A DNA stretch of 64,000 nt from Erythrobacteraceae bacterium (GTDB lineage: Bacteria > Pseudomonadota > Alphaproteobacteria > Sphingomonadales > Sphingomonadaceae), in contig CANJYE010000009.1 in NCBI GenBank assembly GCA_947479055.1, positions 1 through 64,000 on the forward strand. Reading direction: 5' to 3'. The notes beneath the pieces were generated by a model. That model did not search any database, was not told the DNA's origin, and saw only the letters and a list, made by a program, of their open reading frames with translations. Made by a program: the position numbers and the translations under genes. This document shows, in pieces, positions 1,813 to 22,556 of the stretch (position 1 is its first letter; each line of letters starts with the position of its first letter).

Positions 1813-4404
1813 ATGATGGCTGAGACTGTCGGCGAGCGTTATTTTCTGGGCGGCATCCGCGTGGTCGAGCTGGCCGACGAGCTTGGCGAATATTGCGGCA
1901 AGCTGCTGGGCGGGCTCGGTGCCGATGTCATCAAGGTGGAGCCGCTGGGCGGTGAAGGGACGCGCGGCTATGGTCCGTTCTACCAGGACCAGCCGCATCC
2001 CGACCGCAGCCTCCATTTCTGGCACTACAACCTCGGCAAACGCTCGGTCGCGCTCGATCTGGACGATGAGGGCGATCGCGATGCCTTCCGCCGGTTGATC
2101 GCCACGGCCGACGTGCTGATCGACACCCGCCCGCGCGGTTATCTCGATGAGCGGGGGCTGGGGTTCGAGGAACTGCGCAAGCTGCGCCCGGAACTGATCC
2201 ATGCCCGGATCAGCCCGTTCGGCGACGATGGCCCGTGGGCGGATTATCGTGGCAGCGATCTGGTCCATCTCGCGCTGGGCGGGATGATGATGAATTCGGG
2301 CTATGATGCGGAGCCGGACGGCACCTATCGCACCGCGCCGATCGCGCCGCAGATGTGGCATGCCTATCACATCGCCGGGGAACTGGCGGCGTTCCAGGTG
2401 ATGGCGGCGCTCCACGCGCGGCTGGAAAGCGGGCGCGGTCAGGCGCTGAGCTTTGCGGTGCATGAAGCGGCGGCCAAGAACACCGAGCTGGACATGCCGG
2501 CCTGGGTCTATGCCCGCCAGCCGGTCTATCGCCAGACCTGCCGCCATGCCGTGCCGCAGGTCACGCCACAGCGGGTCAATCCGGAACTGGGCGGGGCCAA
2601 TATTCCCGGCCCGTCGCGGACCATGGACGGGCGCTGGGTGCTGGCCCACCGCTCGTTCATGCCGGGCTTCTATACGCCGCTGGATTCGATCATCGGCCTG
2701 ATGAATTCCAAGGGCTTCTACCACGATCTCGATGATCTCAGGTACCAGGACCAGCAAGTGCTGCTCCAGCCCGAAGTGGCGCTGCATGTGACCGAGGTGG
2801 TCGACCGGTTCGTCGCCAAGTTCGCCTATGACCGCGATCTGTGGAAGGAAGGGCAGGACGCCGGCCTGCCGTGGGCGCCGCTGCGGCTGCCCGAGGAAAA
2901 CCTCGATGACGAGCACTGGGCCGCGCGGAAGACCTTCGCCACGGTCGAATACCCTGAACTGGGCAAGAGCTTTCGCCAGGTCGGGCCGAAATGGGCCGCA
3001 GACGGCGCGGACTGGAAGATCGGCCCGCGCGCGCCGCTGATCGGGGAACACAGCGCCGAAATCCGGGCCAGCCTGCCGCCGCTGCCGCAGGCCAGGGCGC
3101 TGCCGCAGGTAGCCCAGGCTCCGGCCAGCGCGCTCAAGGGGCTGCGGGTGATCGACCTGTCATGGCTGGTCGCCAGCGGCGGGGCGGGGCGGTTCCTCGC
3201 CGCGCACGGGGCGGAAGTGATCAAGGTCGAACATGCCAGCCGGATGGACGGGATGCGGATGGGCGGGGCGTTCGTCGGCCCGGATGGCCGCGCTGCCCGC
3301 GACGGGGCGAGTGAGCCGCTGATGTTCATGCCCGGTGCCAGCCTCAACCGCAGCGGCGCTTTCATGGAAATCAACGCCGCCAAGCGCAGCTTCACGCTCA
3401 ACCTGCGCGAACAGGCGGCCAAGGACATCCTGACCGACCTCATCAAGGACGCCGACATGGTGATCGAGGGTTTCTCCCCCGGCACGATGGACAAGATGGG
3501 CTTCGGCTGGAAGCGGTTGCAGGAGATCAATCCGCGCATCGTCTATGTCCAGCAATCGGGCATGGGCCAGATCGGCACCTATGGCCGGCTGCGCAGCTTC
3601 GGGCCATCGGCGGCGGCCTTTTCCGGGCTGAGCGAGATGTCCGGCCTGCCCGATCCGTGGCCACCGGCGGGGATCGGCTATTCCTATCTCGACTGGTTCG
3701 GAGCCTATCAGATGGCCACTGCGATGATCGCGGCGGCCTATCGCCAGCGGGTGACCGGCAAGGGCTGCTGGATCGATTCATCGCAGGTCGAATGCGGACT
3801 GTTCCTGACCGGCACGGCGATTCTCGATGCTTCCGCCAACGGGCGGCGCTGGCGGCGCTATGGCAACCGTTCCCCATGGAAGCCGGCCGCGCCGCATGGT
3901 GCCTACCGCGCCGAGGGGACGGACCGCTGGGTGGCGATGGCGGCCTTCACGGAAGGCGAATGGCACGCGCTGGCCCGCACGCTCGGCCATACCGAATGGA
4001 CCTGCGACGCGCGCTTTGCCACGCTGGCGCTACGGATGCAGAACCAGGACGCGCTTGATGTGCTGGTGGGCGAAGCGACGCAAGCGTGGGAGCGATACGC
4101 TTTGATGGAAGCCTTGCAGGCGGCGGGCGTCCCCGCCGGCGTTTGCCAGACCGCGCAGGACCGCTGCGAGATCGATCCGCAGCTGGCCCATCTCGACTGG
4201 ATGGTGGAACTGGAGCAGAGCGAGATCGGCCGCTGGCCGGTGCGCGAAGTTCCGGGCAAGCTGAGCGAGACGCCGTCCTATATCGGCGGCCCGCTCGATC
4301 GTTCCGGCCCCAGCTATGGCGAGGACAACCGCTATGTGCTGGAGGAAATCCTCAAGCTTGGCGGCGAGGAGATCGCCCGACTGGAAGCGGCCGGGGTGTT
4401 CTGA
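1813..4404 (+). CDS. Tandem CaiB/BaiF (family III) CoA-transferase, double domain
   Basis: An 863-residue protein, about twice the length of a normal family III CoA-transferase. The N-terminal copy covers roughly residues 10-400 (GGIRVVELADELGEYCGKLL, then LGADVIKVEPLGGEGTR). The C-terminal copy covers about 438-863 (LKGLRVIDLSWLVASGGAGR, then HGAEVIKVEHASRMDG). In the second copy an Asp at about 627 (SYLDWFGAYQMAT) fits the catalytic aspartate that forms the acyl anhydride/CoA thioester. The first copy has QMWHAYHIAGEL at the matching place (about 178-190) and no Asp, so it is probably structural. Predicted to move CoA between a dicarboxylate or bile/terpenoid-type acid and a donor. Monocistronic, with AGAGG upstream of the start. 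Confidence 0.85.
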   Translation: MMAETVGERYFLGGIRVVELADELGEYCGKLLGGLGADVIKVEPLGGEGTRGYGPFYQDQPHPDRSLHFWHYNLGKRSVALDLDDEGDRDAFRRLIATADVLIDTRPRGYLDERGLGFEELRKLRPELIHARISPFGDDGPWADYRGSDLVHLALGGMMMNSGYDAEPDGTYRTAPIAPQMWHAYHIAGELAAFQVMAALHARLESGRGQALSFAVHEAAAKNTELDMPAWVYARQPVYRQTCRHAVPQVTPQRVNPELGGANIPGPSRTMDGRWVLAHRSFMPGFYTPLDSIIGLMNSKGFYHDLDDLRYQDQQVLLQPEVALHVTEVVDRFVAKFAYDRDLWKEGQDAGLPWAPLRLPEENLDDEHWAARKTFATVEYPELGKSFRQVGPKWAADGADWKIGPRAPLIGEHSAEIRASLPPLPQARALPQVAQAPASALKGLRVIDLSWLVASGGAGRFLAAHGAEVIKVEHASRMDGMRMGGAFVGPDGRAARDGASEPLMFMPGASLNRSGAFMEINAAKRSFTLNLREQAAKDILTDLIKDADMVIEGFSPGTMDKMGFGWKRLQEINPRIVYVQQSGMGQIGTYGRLRSFGPSAAAFSGLSEMSGLPDPWPPAGIGYSYLDWFGAYQMATAMIAAAYRQRVTGKGCWIDSSQVECGLFLTGTAILDASANGRRWRRYGNRSPWKPAAPHGAYRAEGTDRWVAMAAFTEGEWHALARTLGHTEWTCDARFATLALRMQNQDALDVLVGEATQAWERYALMEALQAAGVPAGVCQTAQDRCEIDPQLAHLDWMVELEQSEIGRWPVREVPGKLSETPSYIGGPLDRSGPSYGEDNRYVLEEILKLGGEEIARLEAAGVF

Positions 4405-5145: not shown

Positions 5146-5649
5146 TCAGCCGACCCTTGCGGCCTTGGCCACCCGCTCCATCCCGCGCACCACCGAGCGT
5201 TCGTAGACCGCTTCGAGGAATTCCTTGATGTAGTCGCTGGTATCTTCGGCCGGCAAGTCGAAGGTGCTGGAACAGGTGACGTGGCATTTGCCCGGCCCGA
5301 TCTCGTCGATGATCGTGGTGGCCATGTAGTTGCGCATGCCGGTGGGTTGCACGCCTTCGACATTGTAATAGATCCGGCGCGATTCCGGATCGGCATGGAG
5401 CAGGGTTTCCTCGAAGGTCGGGGGGAATCCGGTCGAGGTATCGAAGTGGCAGATGCGGGTGCAGGGAAGGACGTTGACGTCATCGCCTTCGCGCAGCGTG
5501 GTGTCGATCAGGGGGGCCGGGGCTGTCTCGGACAGATCGGCCCATTTCATAACGCCGGGCCAGTCACGCAGAACCGCCCAGAATTCGTCCGCCGAAACAT
5601 CGACATCGCTCTCGAAGAACGCGCCGGTGCGCCTGAACTTGCTCATCAT
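5146..5649 (-). CDS. SRPBCC (START/polyketide-cyclase fold) protein
   Basis: 167 residues with the helix-grip fold signature: an opening FFESDVDVSADEFWAVLRDW, a central beta-rich stretch with CHFDTSTGFPPTF, and a long C-terminal helix (YIKEFLEAVYERSVVRGMER). This is a hydrophobic-ligand-binding fold, used by some cyclases, hydratases and transport proteins; no catalytic assignment is possible. Its ATG overlaps the stop of the lipoate ligase gene as ATGA, so it is translationally coupled, and the ferredoxin follows at once. Confidence 0.7.
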   Translation of the reverse strand: MMSKFRRTGAFFESDVDVSADEFWAVLRDWPGVMKWADLSETAPAPLIDTTLREGDDVNVLPCTRICHFDTSTGFPPTFEETLLHADPESRRIYYNVEGVQPTGMRNYMATTIIDEIGPGKCHVTCSSTFDLPAEDTSDYIKEFLEAVYERSVVRGMERVAKAARVG

Positions 5650-6386
5650 CTCTCTCCTGTCAGGGTGGCCCGTTGCGGGATCGACCCGGTTGGCTGGGTA
5701 ATCCGGTCTGCGATTATCTGCGCGACCGAGACATGGGATCGCCGATCATAGTCGGCGCTCTCGCCGAGCGCCTGCTCGAAACGCTCAATGGCGGTCAGGT
5801 CCTCGTCCAGGTCGCCATCGACCGCGAGCGAGGCGTGGAACACGCGCAGGCCCGTGCCGTTGACGCGGGTGACGAAGCCGGCTGTCCCGGCAAGCTTGCG
5901 GCCCTGCCAGACCAGATTGTAGTCGCCATCGCAATGCGCCCGCGCGACCGCGCCATGTCCGGCCGCGATGCCGAACGGTTCGAGCGCGCGGGCGATGATC
6001 TCCAGCAGGGCGAGGTAATATTGCCTGACCGCCGGATTGCCATCCCCGGCGCGCAGGCTGGCGAGGCTGATGTTGAGCACGCCGGACCGGTGGGCCACGG
6101 TGGTCCCGCCCGAGCGGCGCACCGCGACCGGCCAGCCCGTGGCGGCGCTGGCGGCGGCGGCTTCGGCAAAGCGCGGCATCCGGCCCTGGCGGCGCGAGGT
6201 TACGAGGCAACGGCTGTTGCGCCACACTCTCAGCCAGCGGGTGTCCTGCCCGGCGACAACTAGCTGCGGCGTGTCGGCATCGACACCGATTTGCGGCTCG
6301 GCAGGAAAGCCATGCTCGACCCGCACCGGCAATCCGGCGCTGGCATGCAGATTGGCGATGATCGCCTGTTCCAGCGCGTCAGCCAT
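5646..6386 (-). CDS. Lipoate-protein ligase A family protein (BPL/LplA/LipB domain)
   Basis: 246 residues with the LplA-type ligase core: RRSGGTTVAHRSG (adenylate/lipoate-binding loop), then CDGDYNLVWQGRKLAGTAG containing the catalytic Lys of the GRKLxG motif. It lacks the extra C-terminal domain of long LplA enzymes. It would attach lipoate, or a similar acid, to a lipoyl domain. A stand-alone lipoyl domain with a suitable lysine is encoded at 15730-15963, so a dedicated partner is close by. The start overlaps the end of the upstream flavoprotein gene by 8 bases, so it is in the same operon as the Rieske oxygenase. Confidence 0.75.
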   Translation of the reverse strand: MADALEQAIIANLHASAGLPVRVEHGFPAEPQIGVDADTPQLVVAGQDTRWLRVWRNSRCLVTSRRQGRMPRFAEAAAASAATGWPVAVRRSGGTTVAHRSGVLNISLASLRAGDGNPAVRQYYLALLEIIARALEPFGIAAGHGAVARAHCDGDYNLVWQGRKLAGTAGFVTRVNGTGLRVFHASLAVDGDLDEDLTAIERFEQALGESADYDRRSHVSVAQIIADRITQPTGSIPQRATLTGER

Positions 6387-8118
6387 GGCGCTTGCCCCCG
6401 GCGGCGGCGGCGAGGCTCTGCCCGATCAGATAGCCGAAAGTCATCGCCGGGCCGAGCGTGATCCCTCCCGAAGGATAGGTTCCGGCCATGACCGAATTCA
6501 TGTCATTGCCGCAGGCGTAAAGGCCGGGGATCGGTTGATCCTGTGCATCGAGAACTCGCGCCTGCGGATCGGTACGCAGGCCCAGGCTGGTGCCGATATC
6601 GCCGGGAACGATCTTCACTGCATAGAACGGCGGCGTCTTGATCGGGCCGAGGCAGGGATTGGGCACATGATCCGGATCGCCCAGATAGCGGTTGTATCCT
6701 GTGCTGCCCTTGCCGAAATCGCTGTCCACGCCGCTGGCAGCAAAGCGGGTGTGGGCGGCGGCTTCCGCTTCCAGCGCATCGGCCGGAACACCGATCTTGC
6801 GGGCCAGTTCGGCCAGGCTTCCGGCCTTGACCAGATAGCCGGCCTTCAGCAGTGCGCCGTGCGGGAAGGGCCATGGCTTGGCGAGGCCAAGGCCGTATTG
6901 TGCAAGGAAGTGCGCGTCGCACACCAGCCAGGCCGGGATCGTCGGGGTATGCACATGCTCTCGGTGCATCGCCGCGACGAAATCATGATAGGACGCGCCT
7001 TCGTTAACGAAGCGACGCCCCTGCTGGTTCACCGCGATCACCCCGGGTTTTGACCGGTCGATGATCAGATGCGGGCATTTGAGGATCGAGCCATCGGGCC
7101 GGGTCAGCACCGAGACCGGAGTCCAGAAGGCGTTGTCGAGGTTGATATCGTCCAGATGGCCCCCGGCGGCGAGGCCGATGGAAATGCCGTCACCTACATT
7201 GCTTTCGGGCGCCATGCTCTGGTGCTGGTCGGGATAGGGTACATTCTGGCCCATCATTGCCGCATTGGCGGGAAAGCCGCCGGTCGCCAGCACCAGCCCT
7301 TGCCGCGCGCGCAGGGTGACCTGCCTGCCGCGATGCTCGACCGCAAGGCCGGCAACCCTGTCGCCATCCATCACCAGCGCCTTGACGGTGACGCTGTCCC
7401 ACAAATCTACACCGGCATCCAGCGCGGATTTTAGCAGCCGCCCGGCCAGCGCATTGCCCAGCGCCAGCCGGGTGCCGCGCTTGTAGAGGCGCAGCTTGTC
7501 CCAGGCGAAACGGGCAACCAGCTTCGCCCCATGGCGGGCCGAAGCGAAGGAGCGGACGCCCCTGGCCAGCGCGTCGATATCGTATTTGCCGACCATCATC
7601 CCGCCGAACAGCAGGAAGGTCGGGATCGGCGGGCGCAGCCGGTCGAACCACTTGCCCAGCGTTCGCCCGTCGAACGGGGCCGGGTCCATCATCCGGCCGG
7701 CGGGCAGTGCGCCTTCTTCTTCCGAATGATAATCCGGCCCGGCCATCCGGGCGACCAGCTTGACCTCGGTCCGCGTGTTGAAGAACGCTTCCATCTTCGG
7801 GACGTTGTCGAGATAGGTCTGGACCAGTTCCCAGCGCGGGCGATTGCCCAGCACCCGGCGCAGGTAATGCGCGGCGCTGTCGAGGCTGTCCTCGATCCCC
7901 TTGCCGGGCAGGTCGCTGTTGGCCGGAACCCACACCACCCCACCGGATGTGGCCGCGCCGCCGCCGAAAGTGTCGCATTTTTCAAGCACCAGCGCGCTGG
8001 CGCCGTGCATCGCGGCGACCGTGGCGGTCGCCAGCCCGCCCGCGCCGGAGCCGAGGATGAGGACATCGACCTCATGGTCCCACGCGGCGGGCAGCGGAAG
8101 TTTTGGCACGTCCAGCAT
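6379..8118 (-). CDS. KstD-like FAD-dependent dehydrogenase (FRD family)
   Basis: 579 residues. The N-terminal dinucleotide fold shows VLILGSGAGGLATATVAA and then EKCDTFGGGAATSGGVVWVP, the typical start of 3-ketosteroid-delta1-dehydrogenase/fumarate-reductase-like flavoproteins. The C-terminal FAD loop PIPGLYACGNDMNSVMAGTYPSGG holds Tyr548, in the place of the catalytic tyrosine of KstD enzymes (TYxGxG). No signal peptide, so cytosolic. Predicted to introduce a double bond next to a carbonyl in a ring substrate. Transcribed with a Rieske oxygenase upstream and a lipoate ligase overlapping downstream. Substrate unknown. Confidence 0.82.
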   Translation of the reverse strand: MLDVPKLPLPAAWDHEVDVLILGSGAGGLATATVAAMHGASALVLEKCDTFGGGAATSGGVVWVPANSDLPGKGIEDSLDSAAHYLRRVLGNRPRWELVQTYLDNVPKMEAFFNTRTEVKLVARMAGPDYHSEEEGALPAGRMMDPAPFDGRTLGKWFDRLRPPIPTFLLFGGMMVGKYDIDALARGVRSFASARHGAKLVARFAWDKLRLYKRGTRLALGNALAGRLLKSALDAGVDLWDSVTVKALVMDGDRVAGLAVEHRGRQVTLRARQGLVLATGGFPANAAMMGQNVPYPDQHQSMAPESNVGDGISIGLAAGGHLDDINLDNAFWTPVSVLTRPDGSILKCPHLIIDRSKPGVIAVNQQGRRFVNEGASYHDFVAAMHREHVHTPTIPAWLVCDAHFLAQYGLGLAKPWPFPHGALLKAGYLVKAGSLAELARKIGVPADALEAEAAAHTRFAASGVDSDFGKGSTGYNRYLGDPDHVPNPCLGPIKTPPFYAVKIVPGDIGTSLGLRTDPQARVLDAQDQPIPGLYACGNDMNSVMAGTYPSGGITLGPAMTFGYLIGQSLAAAAGGKRHG

Positions 8119-11369: not shown

Positions 11370-13037
11370 TCACGCCGGGTTGACCTCGCGAGCAGCAGAC
11401 TTCCCCGCGCGACGGCCCGAGAACAAGCCATCTCCGATCGACATGCCGCTGATATAGCCGTTCGAGCATAGCCCCACAGCAGCACGGCCCGCCGCATAGA
11501 GTCCTGGCACCGGCAAGCCGTTCCCGGTCAGGACGTTGCCGGTGTCTTCATCCACCGTCAGCCCGCCCAGTGTGAACAACTGGCTGAATGCAAAATGATT
11601 TGTGATCGCGAAGTTGATGGCAATGAAACCACCTTTCTCGAGCGGAACGCGATTTGCCTCCGATTTGCCGAAGGGATCGGGGTTTCCCGAAGCGATAGCA
11701 GCATTCAGGTCTTGCCCGGAACGCTCGAGCCCGGCGGGGTCGATGCCGCATTTGCGCGCAAGTTCGCCCAGGCTTCCGGCCCGGCGCGTGCCTCCGAGCA
11801 GGAAATTGAGCAAGGCCGGAGCACCGTAGAATTTCAGGAACAGCGCACCGCTGCACAAGGCTTCCTTGATCGCCGCGCGAAAGCTCCGGGCAGGGAGGAC
11901 CAGCCATGACTTGCCTTCCGGCTGATCGCCGATCGCAAGCCCGAGAAAGCCGGAATAGGCCTCCTCGTTGATGAAACGCTCGCCCCGCTTGTTGACGAGG
12001 ATGCCGTGCAGCAGTGAATTGGGCGGAGCGATAATGCGCGCGGCATAAATCGAATCCATCCGGTCCGTGGCTCCGCCGAGCGACTGGCCCAGTTCGATCC
12101 CGCTTCCATCGCAGCCCAGCGAGGCCAGTCGCATCAGCGACTGGTAATTTTCCGCAAGGAAAGGGCGATGGCGATGCAGCATCTTGAGGTTCATCGCAAA
12201 GCCGCCGGTTGACAGGACAACTCCGCCGCGCGCCCTGATCCGCCGCACCTGCGCAACCCGCGCTTCGAGTTCGCGCGACTTCACAACCGCGCGTTCAGAG
12301 ATTTTCGCCTTGAACGGCAGCATCGGGACGACCTTGGCGTATTCCTTCTGGTGGGCCTTGCGGTGTTCTTCCGGCACCCTTGCGGTCTCTATCCCGATCA
12401 CGCGCCCATTTGCGTCCTGGATCAGGCGTACCGCCCGCTCATGCTGTCGCAGCTTGACGCCGAGGTGTTCGGCCGACCGGGCGAGTGCATCATAATAGGC
12501 ATAACCCGACATGCCGGTTCCGACGGCGCGGTGGCCGCGCGGTACAGGCGGGGTCTTGGCTGCATATTCGGGGACCTTCTCGTTCCCCGAATAATACAGA
12601 AACTTGCCATCTGGGGGATAGATCGTCTTTTCGAGGAACAGATCGGAAGCGTAGGGCACGCCATGGCCGACAAGCCATTCGAGATTGGCTTCGCTTTCAT
12701 CGCAATAGCGGCGCAGCGTTTCGGGCCGGACGATATCGCCAGCTTCCATCGCGAGATAGTCGTACATCGCGTCGGCGCTGTCGTCATAGCCGACCTCGCG
12801 CTGGAAACGCGTATTGCCGGCATATATCACCCCGCCACTAAAGGCGGTTGCACCCCCGCCGGAGAAGCGATCCACCGCGACCACGTCGGCACCCGATTCG
12901 CGGGCTTGCAGGGCTGCGCAGGCACCGGCGCCGCCGAAGCCCACGACCAGAACGTCGGTGGTCTCGTCCCAGTCCACCTCATCGGCGTTGGCGACTGTCA
13001 GCGGCGGAAGAATTGCCCCCTCGTTTGCGCTGCTCAT
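11370..13037 (-). CDS. FAD-dependent oxidoreductase, fumarate-reductase/KstD family
   Basis: 555 residues. FAD-binding start VLVVGFGGAGACAALQARES with FSGGGATAFSGGVIYAG, a middle GGVVLSTGGFAMNLKML, and a C-terminal LPVPGLYAAGRAAVGLCSNG. Unlike the other three related proteins here, it has SNGYISGMSIGDG in place of the TYxGxG loop, so a different substrate or reaction is likely. Start set at ATG 13037 because of the AAGGA/GGAAA RBS; the open frame continues 186 bases further up without a better start. First gene of the minus-strand operon, divergent from the EthD gene. Confidence 0.8.
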   Translation of the reverse strand: MSSANEGAILPPLTVANADEVDWDETTDVLVVGFGGAGACAALQARESGADVVAVDRFSGGGATAFSGGVIYAGNTRFQREVGYDDSADAMYDYLAMEAGDIVRPETLRRYCDESEANLEWLVGHGVPYASDLFLEKTIYPPDGKFLYYSGNEKVPEYAAKTPPVPRGHRAVGTGMSGYAYYDALARSAEHLGVKLRQHERAVRLIQDANGRVIGIETARVPEEHRKAHQKEYAKVVPMLPFKAKISERAVVKSRELEARVAQVRRIRARGGVVLSTGGFAMNLKMLHRHRPFLAENYQSLMRLASLGCDGSGIELGQSLGGATDRMDSIYAARIIAPPNSLLHGILVNKRGERFINEEAYSGFLGLAIGDQPEGKSWLVLPARSFRAAIKEALCSGALFLKFYGAPALLNFLLGGTRRAGSLGELARKCGIDPAGLERSGQDLNAAIASGNPDPFGKSEANRVPLEKGGFIAINFAITNHFAFSQLFTLGGLTVDEDTGNVLTGNGLPVPGLYAAGRAAVGLCSNGYISGMSIGDGLFSGRRAGKSAAREVNPA

Positions 13038-13178
13038 GTCGTTTCCTTTCCCTTCAGATTTGTACCGGCATATTCGAAGCGGGCCTTTGGCCCGCTCTGC
13101 CAGCACTTGCTCCCCGATCCCCGCAGCGCGTCGTGCGCCCGATCGGGAGCGTTGCGAAGCCAGTTTGACCCAGTAACA

Positions 13179-13192
13179 TTCTAGCACTACAA
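13179..13192. promoter_or_regulatory. Weak copy of the candidate GntR operator in a divergent promoter
   Basis: TTCTAGCACTACAA lies in the 236-base gap between the divergent flavoprotein and EthD genes, flanked by GTAAC and GTGAC. It shares only the TTCTA half with the sites at 10468, 16699 and 19351, so it is the weakest member of the set. Confidence 0.22.
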
Positions 13193-13273
13193 CGTGACAC
13201 AAATGCAAGTGGTTCGTCCACAACCAAAATGGACCCGGGGCATTAGCCTGGCGTCGCGGATGGAGAGTGTATC

Positions 13274-13683: not shown

Positions 13684-14685
13684 ATGCAATCTCCTGCGAA
13701 TGCGAGTGGCAATCTCCACCATCGGCTCTGGATGTACCAGGCGATGCTACGCAGCCGTGAGCTCGAAACCAGGATCAAGGAGATCTATTTCGAAGGCAAG
13801 CTGCCGGTGTTCAACATGGCCAAGGGGCCGATCCCGGGGGAAATGCACCTTTCGGTCGGTCAGGAACCGTGCGCGGTCGGGGTGTGCGCCCATTTGCGCC
13901 CGACCGATGTGGTCACCGCCACCCATCGCCCGCACCATGTCGCCATCGCCAAGGGCGTCGACATGAACGCGATGACGGCGGAAATCTTCGGAAAGAAGAC
14001 CGGCCTGTCGAAGGGGCTGGGCGGGCATATGCACATCTTTGATTCGGCCGTGAACTTCAGTTGCAGCGGCATCATCGGCGAAGGAACCGCGCCTGCCGTC
14101 GGCGCAGCGATGGCGGCCAAATTGCAGGGGCGCGACGATGTCGCCGTCTCCTTCCTCGGCGAAGGCGGGGCCAACCAGGGCCAGTTCCACGAGGCGGCAA
14201 ACCTGGCCGGCCTGTGGAAAGCTCCGGTGATTTTCATCATCGAGGACAATTCCTACGGTATTTCGGTGTCCAAGGCGGAAAGCACGGCGGTGCCGCGCAA
14301 TTCCGATCGCGCGGCGGCCTATGGCATGCCGGGCGTCTATGTTTCCGACAATGATCCCGACGCGATTTACGAGGCGGCGGGCGAAGCGATCCGCCGCGCC
14401 CGTGCCGGGGAAGGTCCGTCGATCATCGAGATCGAGACGCACCGGCTCGAAGGGCATTTCGTCGGCGACACGAACGAATACCGGCCGCAGGCGGAGCGGG
14501 ACCGCCTGCCCAGCCTTGATCCGATCCCGCTCTATCGCGAGCGGCTGCTCGCCGAAGGCTATGAAGGTGCCGAGCTGGAGCGGCTGGAAGCCGAAGCGGC
14601 CAGCGCCGCCGACGCCGCGATCGCCTTCGCCCGTGCATCCGAATTCCCCACATTCCAGGAGGCCCTGAACCATGTCTTCGCCTGA
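13684..14685 (+). CDS. Thiamine-diphosphate 2-oxoacid dehydrogenase E1, alpha subunit
   Basis: 333 residues, acetoin/branched-chain/pyruvate dehydrogenase E1-alpha type. The ThDP/Mg motif begins GEGGANQG at about residue 159 and ends with IIEDNSYGIS about 30 residues on. Earlier segments KGPIPGEMHLSVGQEPCAVG and GLSKGLGGHMHIF are also standard. It decarboxylates a 2-oxo acid with the E1-beta subunit, transferring the acyl group to lipoyl lysine. It overlaps E1-beta by 14 bases. Sequence cannot separate acetoin, pyruvate or another 2-oxo acid; the catabolic context favours a pathway-specific substrate. Confidence 0.87.
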   Translation: MQSPANASGNLHHRLWMYQAMLRSRELETRIKEIYFEGKLPVFNMAKGPIPGEMHLSVGQEPCAVGVCAHLRPTDVVTATHRPHHVAIAKGVDMNAMTAEIFGKKTGLSKGLGGHMHIFDSAVNFSCSGIIGEGTAPAVGAAMAAKLQGRDDVAVSFLGEGGANQGQFHEAANLAGLWKAPVIFIIEDNSYGISVSKAESTAVPRNSDRAAAYGMPGVYVSDNDPDAIYEAAGEAIRRARAGEGPSIIEIETHRLEGHFVGDTNEYRPQAERDRLPSLDPIPLYRERLLAEGYEGAELERLEAEAASAADAAIAFARASEFPTFQEALNHVFA

Positions 14686-15727
14686 CACCGAGACCCTTGA
14701 GGCTCCTGCGGCTTCCCGCCAGCGCCGCCTGACCATCGCCCGCGCCCTCAACGAGGCGCTGCATCAGGAAATGGCGGCCGACAATTCCGTTCTCGTCATG
14801 GGCGAGGACCTGGGCAAGATGGGCGGTGTGTGGGGCACCACCGGCGGCCTGCTTGACGCCTATGGCGCGGAGCGGGTGCGCGATACGCCCATTTCCGAAG
14901 CCGGCTTCATCGGCGCGGCGGTGGGCATGGCCGCTGCCGGCATTCGCCCGGTGGTGGAACTGATGTTCGTCGATTTCTTCGGCGTGTGCATGAACGCCAT
15001 CTCCAGCCTTGCCGCCAAGCAGAGCTTCTTCTCGGGAGGCAAGGTCAAATGCCCGATGGTGCTGATGACCTCGGTCGGCGGCGGCTACAGCGATGCGGGC
15101 CAGCATTCGCAGTGCCTCTATGCCACATTTGGCCATCTGCCGGGCCTCAAGGTGGTGATCCCTACCAATGCCTATGATGCCAAGGGCATGCTGCTTTCCG
15201 CCATTCGCGATGACAATCCGGTGGTCTTCATGTTCCACAAGGGGCTGCAGGGCATGGGCTGGCTCGGCACAGCGCCGGGCTCGGTCGTGCATGTGCCCGA
15301 AGGCGATTACCTCGTCCCGCTCGACAAGGCGGCGGTGGTGCGGGAAGGCAGCGACATCACGTTGGTCGGCCTCGGTCTGACCACGCATCACGCGGTCGAT
15401 GCGGCCAAGGTGCTGGCCAAGGAGGGCATTTCCGCCGAAGTGATCGACCTGCGCTCGATCGCGCCGCTCGACCGGGAAACGATCCTCGCCTCGGTCCGCA
15501 AGACCGGCCGGCTGGTCGTGGCGGACGAGGACTATCTCAGCTACGGCGTCAGCGCCGAAGTGATCGCCACCGCCTGCGAGGACAGCGCTGTAAAGTGGAA
15601 GTCCCGCCCTCGGCGGCTGGCCTATCCCGACATCCCGATCCCTTACAGTGCGGTGCTGGAACAGGAAGCCCTGCCCAATGTCGAGCGGCTGGTTGACCTT
15701 GCCCGCGCGGCGATGACGGAGAAGTAA
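14672..15727 (+). CDS. 2-oxoacid dehydrogenase E1, beta subunit
   Basis: 351 residues. Shows VMGEDLGKMGGVWGTTGGL, DTPISEAGFIGAAVGMAAAG and, in the C-terminal transketolase domain, VIDLRSIAPLDRETILASV, all typical of E1-beta. Forms the alpha2-beta2 E1 with the gene upstream, which it overlaps by 14 bases (translational coupling). Two bases separate it from the lipoyl-domain gene. Cytosolic. Confidence 0.88.
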   Translation: MSSPDTETLEAPAASRQRRLTIARALNEALHQEMAADNSVLVMGEDLGKMGGVWGTTGGLLDAYGAERVRDTPISEAGFIGAAVGMAAAGIRPVVELMFVDFFGVCMNAISSLAAKQSFFSGGKVKCPMVLMTSVGGGYSDAGQHSQCLYATFGHLPGLKVVIPTNAYDAKGMLLSAIRDDNPVVFMFHKGLQGMGWLGTAPGSVVHVPEGDYLVPLDKAAVVREGSDITLVGLGLTTHHAVDAAKVLAKEGISAEVIDLRSIAPLDRETILASVRKTGRLVVADEDYLSYGVSAEVIATACEDSAVKWKSRPRRLAYPDIPIPYSAVLEQEALPNVERLVDLARAAMTEK

Positions 15728-15729
15728 CC

Positions 15730-15963
15730 ATGGCCCTTGTGACGATCCCCGACAGCATGTGGGACGATGACAGCGAGGGGTTCATCTCCTCCTGGTTTTA
15801 TGCCGATGGCGACGATGTGGTGGAAGGCGATCTGCTGGCGGAAGTGATGAACGAAAAGGTTGCGAACGAATTGTACGCGCCCGCCTCGGGCGTGCTGGAA
15901 ATCGTCGTCGCGGCGGAGGAGCCAATCACCAAGGGCCAGCTCGTCGCCCGGATTGGCGGCTGA
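15730..15963 (+). CDS. Stand-alone lipoyl (biotinyl-like) carrier domain
   Basis: A 77-residue protein made only of one lipoyl domain. Lys43 in EVMNEKVANELYAPASG is the lipoylation site, with the usual ASGVLEIVVAAEEPITKGQLVARI second half. In ordinary complexes this domain is the N-terminus of E2; here it is a separate protein two bases after E1-beta and four before E2. The lipoate ligase at 5646-6386 is the likely modifying enzyme. The tag sequence is NEK, not the common TDK. Confidence 0.85.
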   Translation: MALVTIPDSMWDDDSEGFISSWFYADGDDVVEGDLLAEVMNEKVANELYAPASGVLEIVVAAEEPITKGQLVARIGG

Positions 15964-15967
15964 GCCG

Positions 15968-16672
15968 ATGGGCGAAGCCGCGCTCCCTGATGAAACCGGC
16001 GTCCGCCGGGTCCGCATTGGCGGTGTCCGCAAGTTCATCGCCGAGCGGATGCGCGAGAGCCTGGCCCATGCCGCGCAGCTGACCTTTCACGGCGAGGCAG
16101 ACCTGACCCGCCTGCTGGAACTGCGTGCCGGATGGAAGGCAGCCGGGGTGCCGATCGGGATCGAAGATTGTCTGATTGCGGCGCTGGCCCGGGCACTGTC
16201 CGAGCAGCCCGAGATCAACGGCACCTCCGATGACGAGGCCGTGACCATCCACGATGCCATCCACGTCGCCATAGCCATTGCCGCGCCGGACGGGTTGAAG
16301 ACACCGGTGCTGCGCGATGTCAGGGGCAAGAGCCTGCTAACTCTGGCGCAGGAGCGGCGCGATCTGGTCGATCGGGCGCTGGCGAAGAAGTTGCAGGTTT
16401 CGGAGATGAAGGGCGGTACGGTTACGCTGAGCAATCTCGGCAATTCACGGGTGCGCTTTTTTACGCCGATCCTCAACGGCGGGCAGCTGATACTGCTCGG
16501 GGTCGGCTGTCCGCAAGTGCGGCCAGCCTTTGCCGCCGATGGTTCGGTGGTGGCGCGCAGTTACCTCGGCCTGTCGCTGACAGTCGATCACCGGATCGTC
16601 GATGGCGAACCGGCGGCCCGCCTGCTGACCGCAATCTGCCGCCACATCGAGCAATTCAGCGAGGAAGGGTGA
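15968..16672 (+). CDS. Minimal E2 acyltransferase (2-oxoacid dehydrogenase catalytic domain)
   Basis: 234 residues containing only the catalytic core. The opening RRVRIGGVRKFIAERMRESL is the domain's standard first helix, and the active site is VDHRIVDGEPAARLL with His208 and Asp212. It lacks a lipoyl domain (encoded just upstream) and any recognisable peripheral subunit-binding domain, so how it recruits E1 and E3 is unclear. Start chosen at ATG 15968, where homology begins; the open frame starts inside the lipoyl gene. No E3 (dihydrolipoamide dehydrogenase) gene is in the window. Confidence 0.83.
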   Translation: MGEAALPDETGVRRVRIGGVRKFIAERMRESLAHAAQLTFHGEADLTRLLELRAGWKAAGVPIGIEDCLIAALARALSEQPEINGTSDDEAVTIHDAIHVAIAIAAPDGLKTPVLRDVRGKSLLTLAQERRDLVDRALAKKLQVSEMKGGTVTLSNLGNSRVRFFTPILNGGQLILLGVGCPQVRPAFAADGSVVARSYLGLSLTVDHRIVDGEPAARLLTAICRHIEQFSEEG

Positions 16673-16739: not shown

Positions 16740-17624
16740 GTGAGCTTCTGGAATGCCATGAATCGGACAAGCTTTTCGCATCGCTGGATCGATGTGGATG
16801 GCAACAGCACCCGCGTCGTCGAAGCGGGCGATCCTGACAATGCCAGCACGGTCGTGTTTCTCCACGGGATCGGCGGGCATATCGAGACGTTCTGCCACAA
16901 CATCGGTGCCCATGCGCAGAAGCACCGGGTGGTCAGCTTCGACCTGATCGGCCATGGCTATTCGGCCAAGCCGGAAGGCCTGTACGAAATCGACCGCTAT
17001 ATCGACCAGACCATGCGGTTGTTCGATATCATGAAGATCGACAAGCCGGTGCTGGCCGGTACCTCGCTGGGCGGCTGGATCTTTGCCCGGATCGCCGCCC
17101 GCCATCCTGATCGCGTCTCGCGCCTGTCGCTGATCAGCAGCGCCGGCCTGACCGCACACCCCTCGGTGATGAAGAACCTCAAGGAACTAACCGAGCGCGC
17201 CTCGCTGGTGCCGGGCAAGGAAGCGGTCACCATGCGGCTGGACTTCGTCATCAAGAACAAGGCTATGCTGACGCAGGAGCTGATCGACGTCCGCCACGAC
17301 ATCTATGCGGCGGAGGATTACAAGGCCCGGATCAAGGACGTGATGTGCCTCCAGAACATGGAAATCCGCCAGCGCAACCTGTTGCAACTGGATGAGCTTG
17401 CGAAGATCGAGGCACCGACGCTGGTTGTCTGGACCCGCGAGGACCCGACCGCGACGCTCGACGATGGCCTGAAATACGCCAATTCGATCAGGGATTCGCG
17501 CTTCGTACTGTTCGACAATTCATCGCACATGCCCCAGCTTGAGGAGCATCAGCGGTTCAACGAACTGCATTTGCGGTTCATCGACGATCCGAATTCGGTG
17601 AAATCGTCCGAAATCGCGGGGTGA
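16740..17624 (+). CDS. Alpha/beta-fold hydrolase (MhpC-like)
   Basis: 294 residues. Oxyanion segment VVFLHGIGGHIETF, nucleophile elbow GTSLGGW with Ser109, acid Asp235 (WTREDPTA) and His263 (NSSHMPQ) complete the triad. Close in layout to meta-cleavage product and related C-C or ester hydrolases. GTG start at 16740 with AAGGA upstream; ATG at 16758 is the alternative. It sits with a VOC protein and a GST-zeta isomerase, so hydrolysis of a ring-opened or CoA/ester intermediate is plausible. Substrate not assignable. Confidence 0.8.
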   Translation: MSFWNAMNRTSFSHRWIDVDGNSTRVVEAGDPDNASTVVFLHGIGGHIETFCHNIGAHAQKHRVVSFDLIGHGYSAKPEGLYEIDRYIDQTMRLFDIMKIDKPVLAGTSLGGWIFARIAARHPDRVSRLSLISSAGLTAHPSVMKNLKELTERASLVPGKEAVTMRLDFVIKNKAMLTQELIDVRHDIYAAEDYKARIKDVMCLQNMEIRQRNLLQLDELAKIEAPTLVVWTREDPTATLDDGLKYANSIRDSRFVLFDNSSHMPQLEEHQRFNELHLRFIDDPNSVKSSEIAG

Positions 17625-17629
17625 ATGCC

Positions 17630-18163
17630 ATGACAATCAACAAGGTTCATCACGTTGCCTATCGCTGCCGCGATGCCGCGCGCACGGTCGATTTTTACAC
17701 CAAGGCGCTCGGTCTGCCCTTCGTCATGGCCATGTCGGAAGAAAAAGTGCCCACCACCGGCGCGCGCTGCCCCTATATGCACATCTTCTTCAAGCTGGCC
17801 GACGGCAGCCACCTGGCCTTCTTCGACCTGTCGGAAGAGCCGGAGATGCAACTCGATCCCAACACCCCGCCGTGGGTGCAGCATATCGCCCTGGAAGTGG
17901 CGGGGGCGGAAGTGCTCGACGAGCATATCGCGCTGCTGAAGGATTATGGCGTGGAAGTGATCGGGCCGATCGACCATGCGATCTTCAAGTCGGTCTATTT
18001 CCATGATCCCGATGGGCACCGGCTCGAACTGACCTACCGCACCGAAACCGCCGGCGCCCTGCAGAAACTGGGCGACGTCGCCTGGTCGATGCTGGAGGAA
18101 TGGAACCACACGCGCAGTGTCTCGGCGCAGGCGGCCTGGGTCCATGAAGGGCTGCACGATTGA
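17630..18163 (+). CDS. VOC (glyoxalase/extradiol dioxygenase fold) protein
   Basis: 177 residues. Two beta-alpha-beta-beta-beta units: INKVHHVAYRCRDAARTVDFY opens the first and PPWVQHIALEVAGAEVLDEH the second, with YFHDPDGHRLELTYR near the end. His in VHHVAY, His in VQHIAL and Glu in RLELTY fit the 2-His-1-carboxylate metal site, so a metal enzyme (isomerase, lyase or dioxygenase) is possible. Start at ATG 17630 with GGGG 8 bases before; GTG 17621, overlapping the hydrolase stop, is the alternative. Confidence 0.78.
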   Translation: MTINKVHHVAYRCRDAARTVDFYTKALGLPFVMAMSEEKVPTTGARCPYMHIFFKLADGSHLAFFDLSEEPEMQLDPNTPPWVQHIALEVAGAEVLDEHIALLKDYGVEVIGPIDHAIFKSVYFHDPDGHRLELTYRTETAGALQKLGDVAWSMLEEWNHTRSVSAQAAWVHEGLHD

Positions 18164-18804
18164 ACCGGACGCTTTACGGCTACTGGCGCTCGACCGCCGC
18201 TTACCGGGTGCGGATTGCGCTCGGGCTCAAGGGGCTGGAGTGGGACCAGAGCGTGATCGACCTGCGCTTTGGCCACCAGTCCGATCCCGCATTCCTCAAG
18301 CTCAATCCGCAGGGGATGGTGCCGTTCCTGGTCGATGGCGACGCCGGGCTGGCGCAGAGCCTGGCGATCATTGAATATCTGGAGGAAGTCTATCCCGACC
18401 CGCCGCTGATTCCGGGCACGCCAGTGGAACGGGCGCGGATCAGGGCGCTGGCGATGACGGTGGCTTGCGACATCCACCCGATCAACAACCTGCGCGTGCT
18501 GAATTACCTGCGCAAGGAACTCGGCCAGGACGAGGCCGGGGTCAACCAATGGGCGCAACGCTGGATCAATGCCGGCTTTCGCAGTCTTGAACAGGCCGCG
18601 CAGGTTTCCACCGGCCCCTATCTCGCGGGGAACATGGTGACGCTGGCCGATATCTGCCTGGTGCCGCAGCTCTACAACGCTCGCCGGGTCGAAACTGACC
18701 TTGCTCCCTATCCGGGCCTGCTGGCACTGGAGGAACGCCTGTTCCGCCTGCCAGCCTTCGAGGCGGCCCGCCCCGAAAACCAGCCGGAAGCGGTTTTCGT
18801 CTAG
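18160..18804 (+). CDS. maiA: Maleylacetoacetate/maleylpyruvate isomerase, GST zeta class
   Basis: 214 residues. Opens LYGYWRSTAAYRVRIALGLK, the zeta-class form in which the first Ser of SxxxxRVR activates glutathione. NPQGMVPFLVDGD and AIIEYLEEVYPDPPLIP follow, then the helical domain. It isomerises a cis double bond of a maleyl-type ring-cleavage product to the trans form. A TTG start overlapping the VOC stop (ATTGA) is inferred because the fold begins there. A FAH-family hydrolase lies at 29926, but no homogentisate or gentisate dioxygenase is in the window. Confidence 0.8.
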   Translation: MNRTLYGYWRSTAAYRVRIALGLKGLEWDQSVIDLRFGHQSDPAFLKLNPQGMVPFLVDGDAGLAQSLAIIEYLEEVYPDPPLIPGTPVERARIRALAMTVACDIHPINNLRVLNYLRKELGQDEAGVNQWAQRWINAGFRSLEQAAQVSTGPYLAGNMVTLADICLVPQLYNARRVETDLAPYPGLLALEERLFRLPAFEAARPENQPEAVFV

Positions 18805-19274
18805 ATTTCCACCAGTTCCTCGATCGGCTTGAGCATCAGCACAGGGATTAAGCGGTCGGTCGCCTTCTCATAGGCGTGATAGGGATCGTAATGATCCGAG
18901 AGCGCCTTCCACACTGCCGCGCGTTCCTCGCCCGAAATTTCGCGCCAGCTGCCGCGATGGATTTTCCCGGCAACCTTGAACGTAATGTCCGGCTGTGCGG
19001 TCAGGTTGAGGTACCAGGCGGGATGCTCATCGGCTCCGCCCTTGGACGCGGCCAGCGCGTATTCCTCACCATATTTCACATAGATCAGGGGAACATAAAT
19101 CACCTTGCCGCTGCGTCGGCCGAAGGTCTTGAGCAGCAGGGTGGTGGTATCGACCCGCCCACCGATATGGCTGGTGTCATAGTGATGCCCGTCATCGCCA
19201 GGCAGGAGCAGCCGCCGGACATGGTCCGCCATGCGTTCCGCCTCGCGCGCTAGCAATTCGCTTGGATCACCCAT
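18801..19274 (-). CDS. Nitroreductase/DDN-type deazaflavin-dependent oxidoreductase family protein
   Basis: 157 residues matching the DUF385/Ddn fold: TLLLKTFGRRSGKVIYVPLI, EYALAASKGGADEHPAWYLN and AQPDITFKVAGK are the hallmark stretches. Family members in actinobacteria reduce quinones or other substrates with F420H2, though relatives bind FMN, FAD or haem products. Whether this host makes F420 is unknown from the window. Its 3' end overlaps the convergent isomerase gene by 4 bases; its promoter region is shared with the SnoaL gene at 19473. Confidence 0.75.
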   Translation of the reverse strand: MGDPSELLAREAERMADHVRRLLLPGDDGHHYDTSHIGGRVDTTTLLLKTFGRRSGKVIYVPLIYVKYGEEYALAASKGGADEHPAWYLNLTAQPDITFKVAGKIHRGSWREISGEERAAVWKALSDHYDPYHAYEKATDRLIPVLMLKPIEELVEI

Positions 19275-20801: not shown

Positions 20802-22556
20802 TTAGCCCGGTTGCTGGCTCCCCGCGTGCAGCGCGGCGAGATAGCCGAAAGTCAGCGCCGGGCCGAGCGTTCCGCCCCCGCCATAATAGGCCTTGGCGGT
20901 TGGCGCGGCGATGCAGTTGCCCGCGCCGTAGAGCCCGGGGATCGGCTGACTGGCGCGGTCCAGTACCTGCCCATGGACGTTGACCCGCGGCCCGCCCTTG
21001 GTGTCGAGCGTTCCGGCAGCGATGATGATCGCGTGATAGGGCCCGGCATCGGCCAGCGGATACATCGTGTCATTGGGCTTGCCGTTGGGCTGGGTGTGTT
21101 CGAAGCAATGATCTACTTCGGTGTCGCCCCGCCCGAAATCGAGGTCCTTGCCGCTCTCGGCGAAGCTGTTGAACCGCTGGCGGGTGTCCTCCAGCTGGCT
21201 GGCGAAGCCATCGCGCAGCCGCACGCTCTGCCCCAGCTTGCCGTCGGCCACCAGTTGCACCAGCCGCGCGTCGATGTTGCGGCCCAGTTCCTCGAAGGTC
21301 GCGCCGCTGATGACATAGGGTGCATTGCGCCCGGCCGGCGGCAGCGGATAGGTATAGCGCCCGGCACCGGGATTCTGCTTCATCCGTTCGTCATAGACGA
21401 GGTAAAGCAGCTGGTTGGGATATTCGCCATGGACCGGGTCCCAGCTGAAATGGGCCTGCGTACGCTCGTTGTAGAGCATCCGTTCGTTCACTACCCGGCG
21501 GCCGTATTTGTTGACGAGGAAGATGCTGCCCGCCGGGTAGAAGAACACGTCGTCGGGCGTGCTGCGCGAAACCAGCGCCTGTTCCAGCACCAGTTGCGCG
21601 TACCAGGCCTTGTTCATGTGATCGAGCACCGCGCCAGCCCTGGTCGCCATCGCCACAAAATCGCCGGTGTTGGTTGGCACGGCGCAGCCGCCGGCGATCG
21701 GGCCGGGCAGATTGCCTTCGGCCATGCGGATGTTGTGGGTGAAGCCGCCGCTGGCGAAGATCACGCCCTTCCTAGCGCGGAAGGCCACTGGCGTGCCGTC
21801 GCGGCTGGCGATCACGCCGGTCACCCGCCCGGTTTCGTCCTGCACCAGATCGGTTGCGCCATGGCCGGTCAGCATCTTCACGCCGAGCCGGTTGGCCCCT
21901 TCGACCAGTTGGCGGATCATTTCCGCGCCGCCCTGCGCCGCCCGTTCCGGCGGGGCATCGGGCCGCAGCCCGCGCCCGCGCGGGGCCTTGTTTTCGGGGA
22001 AGTGGGCGAAATAATCGGGGTATTTGGAGCCATCAAACCCGGCGGAATAGGTGAAGTTGAGCGCGCCGATCGATGCCAGTTCATCCGTCATCAGCGTGGC
22101 GTTGTCGTAATAGGCTTCGAGCAGGGCATAATCGGCCGGATCGAGCCCGAGATTGGGCGCTCCGGCGCGGAACTGGCCGGGCCAGGCGACCTTGGCCATG
22201 TAATCGAGCGCTGCGGGCTTCGGGTCGGCCAGGCCATCGCGGCGCATCAGCGCATTGTTGGGAACCCACCACACTCCGCTCGACTTCGCGGTGGTGCCGC
22301 CGATCATCCCGGCTTTTTCCAGCACCACCACCTTGCTGCCGCGATGGGCCGCGATCACGGCCGCCGTCATGCCCGCGCCGCCGCTGCCGACGACGACGAT
22401 ATCGGCCTCGTCCTGCCAGACGGGTGGCATGGCGGCACTGGCACTGGTCGATGCGGCCAGCATGCCCACGGTCGCCACGCCCGAAGCGCCCGCCGTTGCC
22501 AGAAAGTTCCGGCGCGATAGGCTCCGTTCGGTTTCGGTTTCCTGCTTGATGCTCAC
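20802..22556 (-). CDS. Tat-exported KstD-like FAD dehydrogenase
   Basis: 584 residues. The N-terminus has a twin-arginine signal (LSRRNFLATAG followed by a hydrophobic stretch and ASA), so the folded flavoprotein should be exported to the periplasm. The FAD fold starts DIVVVGSGGAGMTAAVIAA; the C-terminal loop APTAKAYYGGGGTLGPALTF carries Tyr557 at the KstD tyrosine position. Convergent with an operon encoding a lipoprotein cytochrome c, a credible electron acceptor. A periplasmic ring or flavocytochrome-like dehydrogenase is inferred; the substrate is unknown. Confidence 0.82.
   Translation of the reverse strand: MSIKQETETERSLSRRNFLATAGASGVATVGMLAASTSASAAMPPVWQDEADIVVVGSGGAGMTAAVIAAHRGSKVVVLEKAGMIGGTTAKSSGVWWVPNNALMRRDGLADPKPAALDYMAKVAWPGQFRAGAPNLGLDPADYALLEAYYDNATLMTDELASIGALNFTYSAGFDGSKYPDYFAHFPENKAPRGRGLRPDAPPERAAQGGAEMIRQLVEGANRLGVKMLTGHGATDLVQDETGRVTGVIASRDGTPVAFRARKGVIFASGGFTHNIRMAEGNLPGPIAGGCAVPTNTGDFVAMATRAGAVLDHMNKAWYAQLVLEQALVSRSTPDDVFFYPAGSIFLVNKYGRRVVNERMLYNERTQAHFSWDPVHGEYPNQLLYLVYDERMKQNPGAGRYTYPLPPAGRNAPYVISGATFEELGRNIDARLVQLVADGKLGQSVRLRDGFASQLEDTRQRFNSFAESGKDLDFGRGDTEVDHCFEHTQPNGKPNDTMYPLADAGPYHAIIIAAGTLDTKGGPRVNVHGQVLDRASQPIPGLYGAGNCIAAPTAKAYYGGGGTLGPALTFGYLAALHAGSQQPG

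Follow-up and report, generated by a model that had tools for sequence, protein, structure and literature searches.

A conserved 2-oxoacid dehydrogenase operon with a free lipoyl carrier and a bare E2 acyltransferase

Genes and chains of the operon

The window, the whole stretch of 64,000 nucleotides that was analyzed, carries at 13684-16672 four genes, whose products are the two E1 subunits (E1-alpha and E1-beta), a lipoyl protein of 77 aa and a catalytic E2 of 234 aa. E1-alpha, the alpha subunit of a ThDP-dependent 2-oxoacid dehydrogenase E1, is encoded at 13684..14685 (+; 333 aa; PF00676, 2.3e-67) and E1-beta at 14672..15727 (+; 351 aa; PF02779/PF02780). These Pfam domains fill each chain, and the E1 with its ThDP domains is present. 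The cofactor motif of E1-alpha reads GEG...EDN, where GDG...ENN is usual, and the top NCBIfam scores of both chains are to PDH E1 models, all under the curated cut-offs. The free lipoyl carrier follows at 15730..15963 (+) and the bare E2 acyltransferase at 15968..16672 (+). Between the lipoyl ORF and the ATG of the E2 at 15968 lie a TGA stop and 4 nt, and the two frames differ.

In the carrier, a Biotin_lipoyl domain (PF00364, 1.4e-11) covers residues 15-75 of 77, with no other Pfam match above cut-off; GCV_H (PF01597) is absent from the chain, and a GcvH gene lies elsewhere in the genome, on contig C11. Lys43 is located in MNEKV (codon 15856-15858). The AlphaFold2 model is a lipoyl domain with Lys43 at the hairpin tip between two strands (pLDDT 93, with confidence across the five models ranging from 93 to 46). 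Carriers of the window type have an M/L-x-E/A-K site (M/L-x-E/A-K-V) instead of the usual E-T-D-K, and their W-x-x-D-x-E stretch is a clade-specific change.

The E2 ORF consists of a 2-oxoacid_dh domain (PF00198, 1.7e-58) over residues 12-231 of 234, and nothing further rises above the Pfam cut-off. The catalytic His208 lies in DHRIVDG (codon 16589-16591), Ser155 in SNLG, and Arg161 is encoded at 16448-16450. The AlphaFold2 model is an E2 core (pLDDT 86), and every one of its top PDB hits is likewise an E2 core (E about 1e-23). The chain has no lipoyl domain, peripheral subunit-binding domain (PSBD) or hydrophobic C-terminal tail. The original prediction of separate E1-alpha, E1-beta, a 77-residue lipoyl protein with Lys43 and a 234-residue catalytic E2 with a DHRxxDG site is therefore borne out: the ORF coordinates are exact, the Pfam domains agree, the carrier model has the lipoyl fold, and the E2 has both the motif and the fold.

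Considering all domains above the Pfam cut-off, no PSBD was found in E1-alpha, E1-beta, the carrier or the E2. A whole-genome search with PF02817 gave three matches, on contigs C33, C26 and C54, and none on the contig of the window (C9) or at a second split locus on C17. A PSBD hidden in E1 or elsewhere on the contig is thus ruled out, in line with the prediction that the subunit-binding domain is lacking. The two E3 genes of the genome (TIGR01350, above cut-off) occur only on C33 and C26, adjoining conventional PDH- and OGDH-type E2s, so that the predicted lack of an E3 in the window also stands. The claim that the usual single-chain E2 is missing is right for the window locus but not for the genome, which has conventional E2s elsewhere. 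Contig C54 carries a 320-aa E2-like frame (L009:7257-8216, +) with a lipoyl domain, a PSBD and a shortened catalytic domain without DHRxxDG. Its operon partners are E1-alpha, E1-beta, an enoyl-CoA hydratase and an acyl-CoA dehydrogenase, and the protein looks like a catalytically dead E2 of the E3-binding-protein kind.

A gene for a lipoyl/octanoyl attachment enzyme of the LplA/LipB/LipM/LipL superfamily is located at 5646..6386 (-; 246 aa; PF21948, 6.5e-17), 9 kb from the carrier. It was found with a profile of operon-associated attachment proteins, and the genome encodes one other PF21948 protein. Its closest curated families transfer octanoyl or lipoyl groups in dependence on GcvH; the nearest NCBIfam model is octanoyl-[GcvH] transferase (8.7e-15), far under equivalog cut-offs. 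The Cys in HCDGDYNL aligns with the Cys of 2p5i/2p0l, which is the catalytic residue in LipL/LipM, and both this Cys and the Lys of GRKLAG are present in 29/29 relatives. Conservation of the LipL/LipM cysteine led us to reject an identity as LplA ligase. Of the 11 complete bare-E2 genome loci, 10 include an attachment gene, compared with 3 of the 68 fused-E2 loci, and the synteny recurs on a Sphingomonas paeninsulae plasmid. In three loci (L026-L028) no attachment gene lies within 16 kb, so part of the family has no adjacent loader. The protein is probably a LipL/LipM-type enzyme and the dedicated loader of the carrier; it would be specific for this carrier, and GcvH (C11) is a possible donor.

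Conservation of the split and exchange of the E2

We define a window-type split system by E1-alpha with GEG..EDN, a carrier with M/L-x-E/A-K and a bare E2 with Arg161, and the window operon has all three. Separate lipoyl and E2 genes occur in many Sphingomonadales, Rhodobacterales and Hyphomicrobiales and in some Gammaproteobacteria, and are often plasmid-borne; plasmids with adjoining lipoyl, bare E2 and E1 genes are found in Sphingomonas, Phaeobacter, Roseibium, Paracoccus, Gemmobacter, Mameliella and Aminobacter. The order E1-alpha, E1-beta, lipoyl, E2 is present in about 30 loci of Alpha- and Gammaproteobacteria. In related genomes, every one of the nearest homologues of the window E2 is a bare chain, encoded by an open frame of 239-271 codons in an operon of matching layout. 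The 80 top-ranking E2 relatives from a scan of 84,980 species genomes fall into two clear groups: bare chains make up the ten nearest, and the remainder are fused lipoyl-PSBD-E2 proteins, except for a further bare operon (L055) and a sequence truncated by its contig end. One locus that starts at a contig end (L097) was left out of the bare-E2 counts. In an even sample of the family of the window, 25 of 301 genomes and 12 of 96 genera have a free lipoyl protein; in a phylum sample, the window E2 type was found in 3 of 399 genomes, including the genome studied here.

The lipoyl and E2 genes adjoin in the usual domain order, as would be expected if they were pieces of one conventional E2 broken by a frameshift or by gene calling. 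Across about 45 split loci, however, all three values of the relative reading frame occur, which excludes a conserved frameshift, and in none of these loci are the two genes joined. Moreover, a joined product would still have neither a PSBD nor a linker, and the clade holds no fused gene. These observations refute an artefact, whose probability we regard as negligible, and the split is genuine.

Window-type bare E2s form a single clade in the tree (34 sequences, SH-aLRT 93). At the position of Arg161 (SNLGxxR[VI]xxFTP), 35 of 35 bare E2s have Arg, whereas Arg is replaced, mostly by Gly, Asp, Glu or Ala, in the fused E2s with a recognizable motif. When hydrophobic residues among the last five were counted, 4 of 34 window-type bare E2s had a hydrophobic C-terminal tail compared with 72 of 81 fused E2s; this loss, a correlate of oligomeric state, is confined to one clade and so is effectively one evolutionary event. 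In cubic and dodecahedral E2 cores, trimers are joined through C-terminal residues. Because the tail is lost, the bare E2 is probably a trimer rather than a 24- or 60-mer.

All 43 window-type E1-betas beside free carriers, Rhodococcus opacus included, fall into one clade (SH-aLRT 99), and for 11 of the 43 no E2 was found nearby. The R. opacus E2 groups with actinobacterial SucB (TIGR02927, 6e-92), and its operon has a lipoyl synthase gene in place of the attachment gene. In 12 genomes picked mostly for a carrier gene without an E2 gene beside it, a bare E2 was absent genome-wide in 10, which have E1 and the free carrier or the carrier alone. E1 and the free carrier are the stable core in these sequences, and the E2 is the exchangeable part.

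The genome has a second split locus, with canonical motifs, on C17, where genes for E1-alpha and E1-beta are accompanied by one for a lipoyl protein of 78 aa and one for a bare E2 of 250 aa. It adjoins thiolase and acyl-CoA dehydrogenase genes, and relatives are found in Paraburkholderia, Diaphorobacter and Azospirillum; no attachment gene was found within the 14 kb examined. The C17 E2 groups with a fused E2, apart from the window type, and a single origin for both split E2s of the genome is rejected (AU p=7e-6). The trees point to at least two independent splits, and to about three origins of the layout if the R. opacus E2 is counted.

Several loci show other combinations. On R. opacus pR1CP1 (L175:2939-7023), a window-type E1 and a free carrier lie with the bare E2 of SucB lineage. 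E1-alpha, E1-beta and a free lipoyl gene, often with an attachment gene, are found without an E2 at L126-L128, L140-L143, L147 and L026:2480-4754. A lipoyl gene without neighbouring E1 or E2 is present in two genomes (L169, G560; L170, G499). The one at L170 adjoins a superoxide dismutase-like gene, and at the corresponding place in a related genome (L028) the operon is complete; L170 is perhaps a decayed operon. Near a Sphingobium bare E2 without adjacent carrier (L037), a 78-aa ORF was considered as the lipoyl gene and rejected, as it is not a lipoyl domain.

A probable free-carrier dehydrogenase and its alternatives

Our data make it likely that the window encodes a catabolic 2-oxoacid (or acyloin) dehydrogenase organized like the glycine cleavage system, with a free carrier, a bare E2, E3 in trans and its own loader. 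E1 (alpha2beta2) would decarboxylate or cleave the substrate and place the acyl group onto the lipoyl-Lys43 of the free carrier. The acyl-carrier would then meet the bare, probably trimeric E2, yielding acyl-CoA, and an E3 encoded in the PDH or OGDH operon of the genome would re-oxidize the dihydrolipoyl carrier. The carrier, loaded by the LipL/LipM-like enzyme encoded in the same cluster, would shuttle between E1, E2 and the shared E3 like H-protein in glycine cleavage. Free diffusion, the trimeric state, E3 in trans and loader specificity are what we infer from the sequences. The diffusing carrier of the original prediction gains support from the persistence of the E1-carrier pair with different E2s or none and from its association with an attachment enzyme of its own, although the carrier may instead be held in a loose complex.

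The genes may be separate and their products nevertheless held in a stable non-covalent complex by new interfaces, for example with the carrier clamped on E1 or E2, leaving no free diffusion. Coupling between the genes is tight, with 4 nt of overlap or gap, they are conserved together, and Arg161 of the E2 and the W-x-x-D-x-E stretch of the carrier could be docking sites. We nevertheless consider such a complex unlikely: E1 and the carrier stay paired whether the E2 comes from one lineage, from another or is missing, which speaks against an E1-E2 assembly that is tight and obligate. The same loci bear on another possibility, that the cores and E3 of conventional PDH/OGDH complexes serve the carrier and the bare E2 is an optional extra. 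At least 10 related genomes have E1 and the carrier, or the carrier alone, and no bare E2 anywhere; E3 must come from the conventional complexes anyway, and Corynebacterium OdhA shows lipoyl exchange between complexes (PMC10415282). A dedicated E2 with intact catalytic residues, however, has been kept in the window and in the operons of most relatives, and we judge this possibility quite improbable.

For the free-carrier dehydrogenase that we prefer, the E2-less operons (in at least 10 genomes) show that a dedicated E2 does not always perform the acyl-CoA step; the simple shuttle scheme leaves them unexplained. We tentatively put forward a modular class with diffusible carriers, in which E1 and its own carrier would form an exchangeable acyl-generating unit, paired with unrelated bare E2s or with none. 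In such a class, the rule of the tethered megacomplex would fail, and the acyl group may reach other acceptors.

Like canonical PDH, OGDH and BCKDH, the window system has E1-alpha/beta, a lipoyl domain, the E2 fold, the Ser of SNLG and DHRxxDG. In contrast to them, it has a separate lipoyl chain, no PSBD, linkers or hydrophobic E2 C-terminal tail, its own attachment enzyme and no E3 in the operon. It shares an E1 heterotetramer, a lipoyl chain and an alpha/beta hydrolase in the operon with acetoin dehydrogenase (AcoABCL). In AcoC, however, the lipoyl domain is fused to the hydrolase, whereas in the window the two are encoded separately and a genuine E2 catalytic domain is present. The small free lipoyl carrier, the separate enzymes and the shared E3 would resemble glycine cleavage by analogy; the chemistry differs, and the window carrier is an E2-type lipoyl domain, not GcvH. 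In Hdr-type sulfur oxidation, the free lipoyl proteins LbpA have their own ligases, and E3 has been suggested to be shared (PMC6067878). That system is alike in its free single-domain lipoyl protein and cluster-encoded LplA-like attachment enzyme (PMC6067878), but it combines a GcvH-like carrier with a ligase and sulfur chemistry, in contrast to the Cys-bearing LipL/LipM-type enzyme and acyl chemistry of the window. Actinobacterial OdhA receives its lipoyl groups in trans from full-length AceF, which is a trimer owing to a C-terminal insertion (PMC10415282). OdhA/AceF shares with the window system an E2 domain without its own lipoyl domain, and the AceF trimer, due to C-terminal change, would have a counterpart in the probable trimer of the window E2. 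The E2 of OdhA is fused to E1, unlike that of the window.

In the open-access papers searched, we found no description of a split, free-standing or separate lipoyl E2, and the tomato-Sphingobium paper makes no mention of these genes. A separate lipoyl-domain gene has reportedly been described in split 2-oxoacid dehydrogenase operons of Haloferax volcanii. The operon represents a real, conserved and overlooked variant, in which the chemical parts are familiar and the architecture is not. Textbooks explain 2-oxoacid dehydrogenases by giant complexes around an E2 core, in which arms swing and substrates are channelled. A conserved and repeatedly evolved version that has no covalent tether left, a probable loader for its carrier and an E2 without the hydrophobic tail makes the purpose of the megacomplex testable with a few small proteins. 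In addition, many operons whose genes are at present annotated just as 'lipoyl domain-containing protein' and '2-oxo acid dehydrogenase subunit E2' can be read as a single coherent system, which catabolic plasmids often carry.

Neighbouring genes and the substrate

The next gene downstream of the E2 encodes an alpha/beta hydrolase of the C-C hydrolase/AcoC-hydrolase-like kind (16740..17624, +; PF00561, 2.6e-25; HsaD-like, 4.3e-35), and its gene order matches that on the Sphingomonas paeninsulae plasmid. A VOC-family protein follows with a 4-nt overlap (17621..18163, +; PF00903, 6e-16), and then a maleylacetoacetate/maleylpyruvate isomerase-like GST, maiA (18160..18804, +; TIGR01262 above cut-off), both also placed by synteny. 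The cluster also holds ring-hydroxylating Rieske oxygenases and FAD dehydrogenases. Together with the C-C hydrolase and maiA, this neighbourhood suggests that the substrate is a 2-oxo acid from ring cleavage.

Alternatively, E1 may be akin to acetoin dehydrogenase and cleave acyloins or diketones instead of decarboxylating 2-oxo acids, a difference that concerns the substrate only and is compatible with the split. The top NCBIfam model of the carrier is the lipoyl part of AcoC (1.3e-10), the hydrolase matches the hydrolase part of AcoC (1.5e-34), and sigma-54-type regulators and alcohol oxidoreductases lie beside several rhodobacterial operons. An AcoC-type lipoyl-hydrolase fusion is absent: the two are separate genes, and both fall far short of the 307 bits set as cut-off for the AcoC model. 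Moreover, the hydrolase scores equally against HsaD, PDH E1 models give the top scores for E1-alpha and E1-beta, if below the cut-offs, and the operon has the E2 catalytic domain that AcoC lacks. We regard an acyloin or diketone substrate as the less likely case.

For the 2-oxo acid substrate suggested by the neighbourhood, a parallel exists in estrogen degradation by Novosphingobium tardaugens, where EdcC is thought to turn a ring-cleavage 2-oxo acid into its CoA ester (PMC7793797). EdcC is an oxidoreductase of another family, and a comparable step in the window cluster is a reasonable guess.

Four FAD_binding_2 / 3-ketosteroid-dehydrogenase-like flavoproteins are encoded at 6379-8118, 11370-13223, 20802-22556 and 40611-42299 of the window, the last judged from the start of its sequence; with two Rieske oxygenases they make up a large catabolic cluster. 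An 863-aa protein at 1813-4404 carries two family III CoA-transferase stretches on one chain, and at 18801-19274 this catabolic cluster of a proteobacterium encodes a member of the F420H2-dependent quinone reductase family (PF04075).
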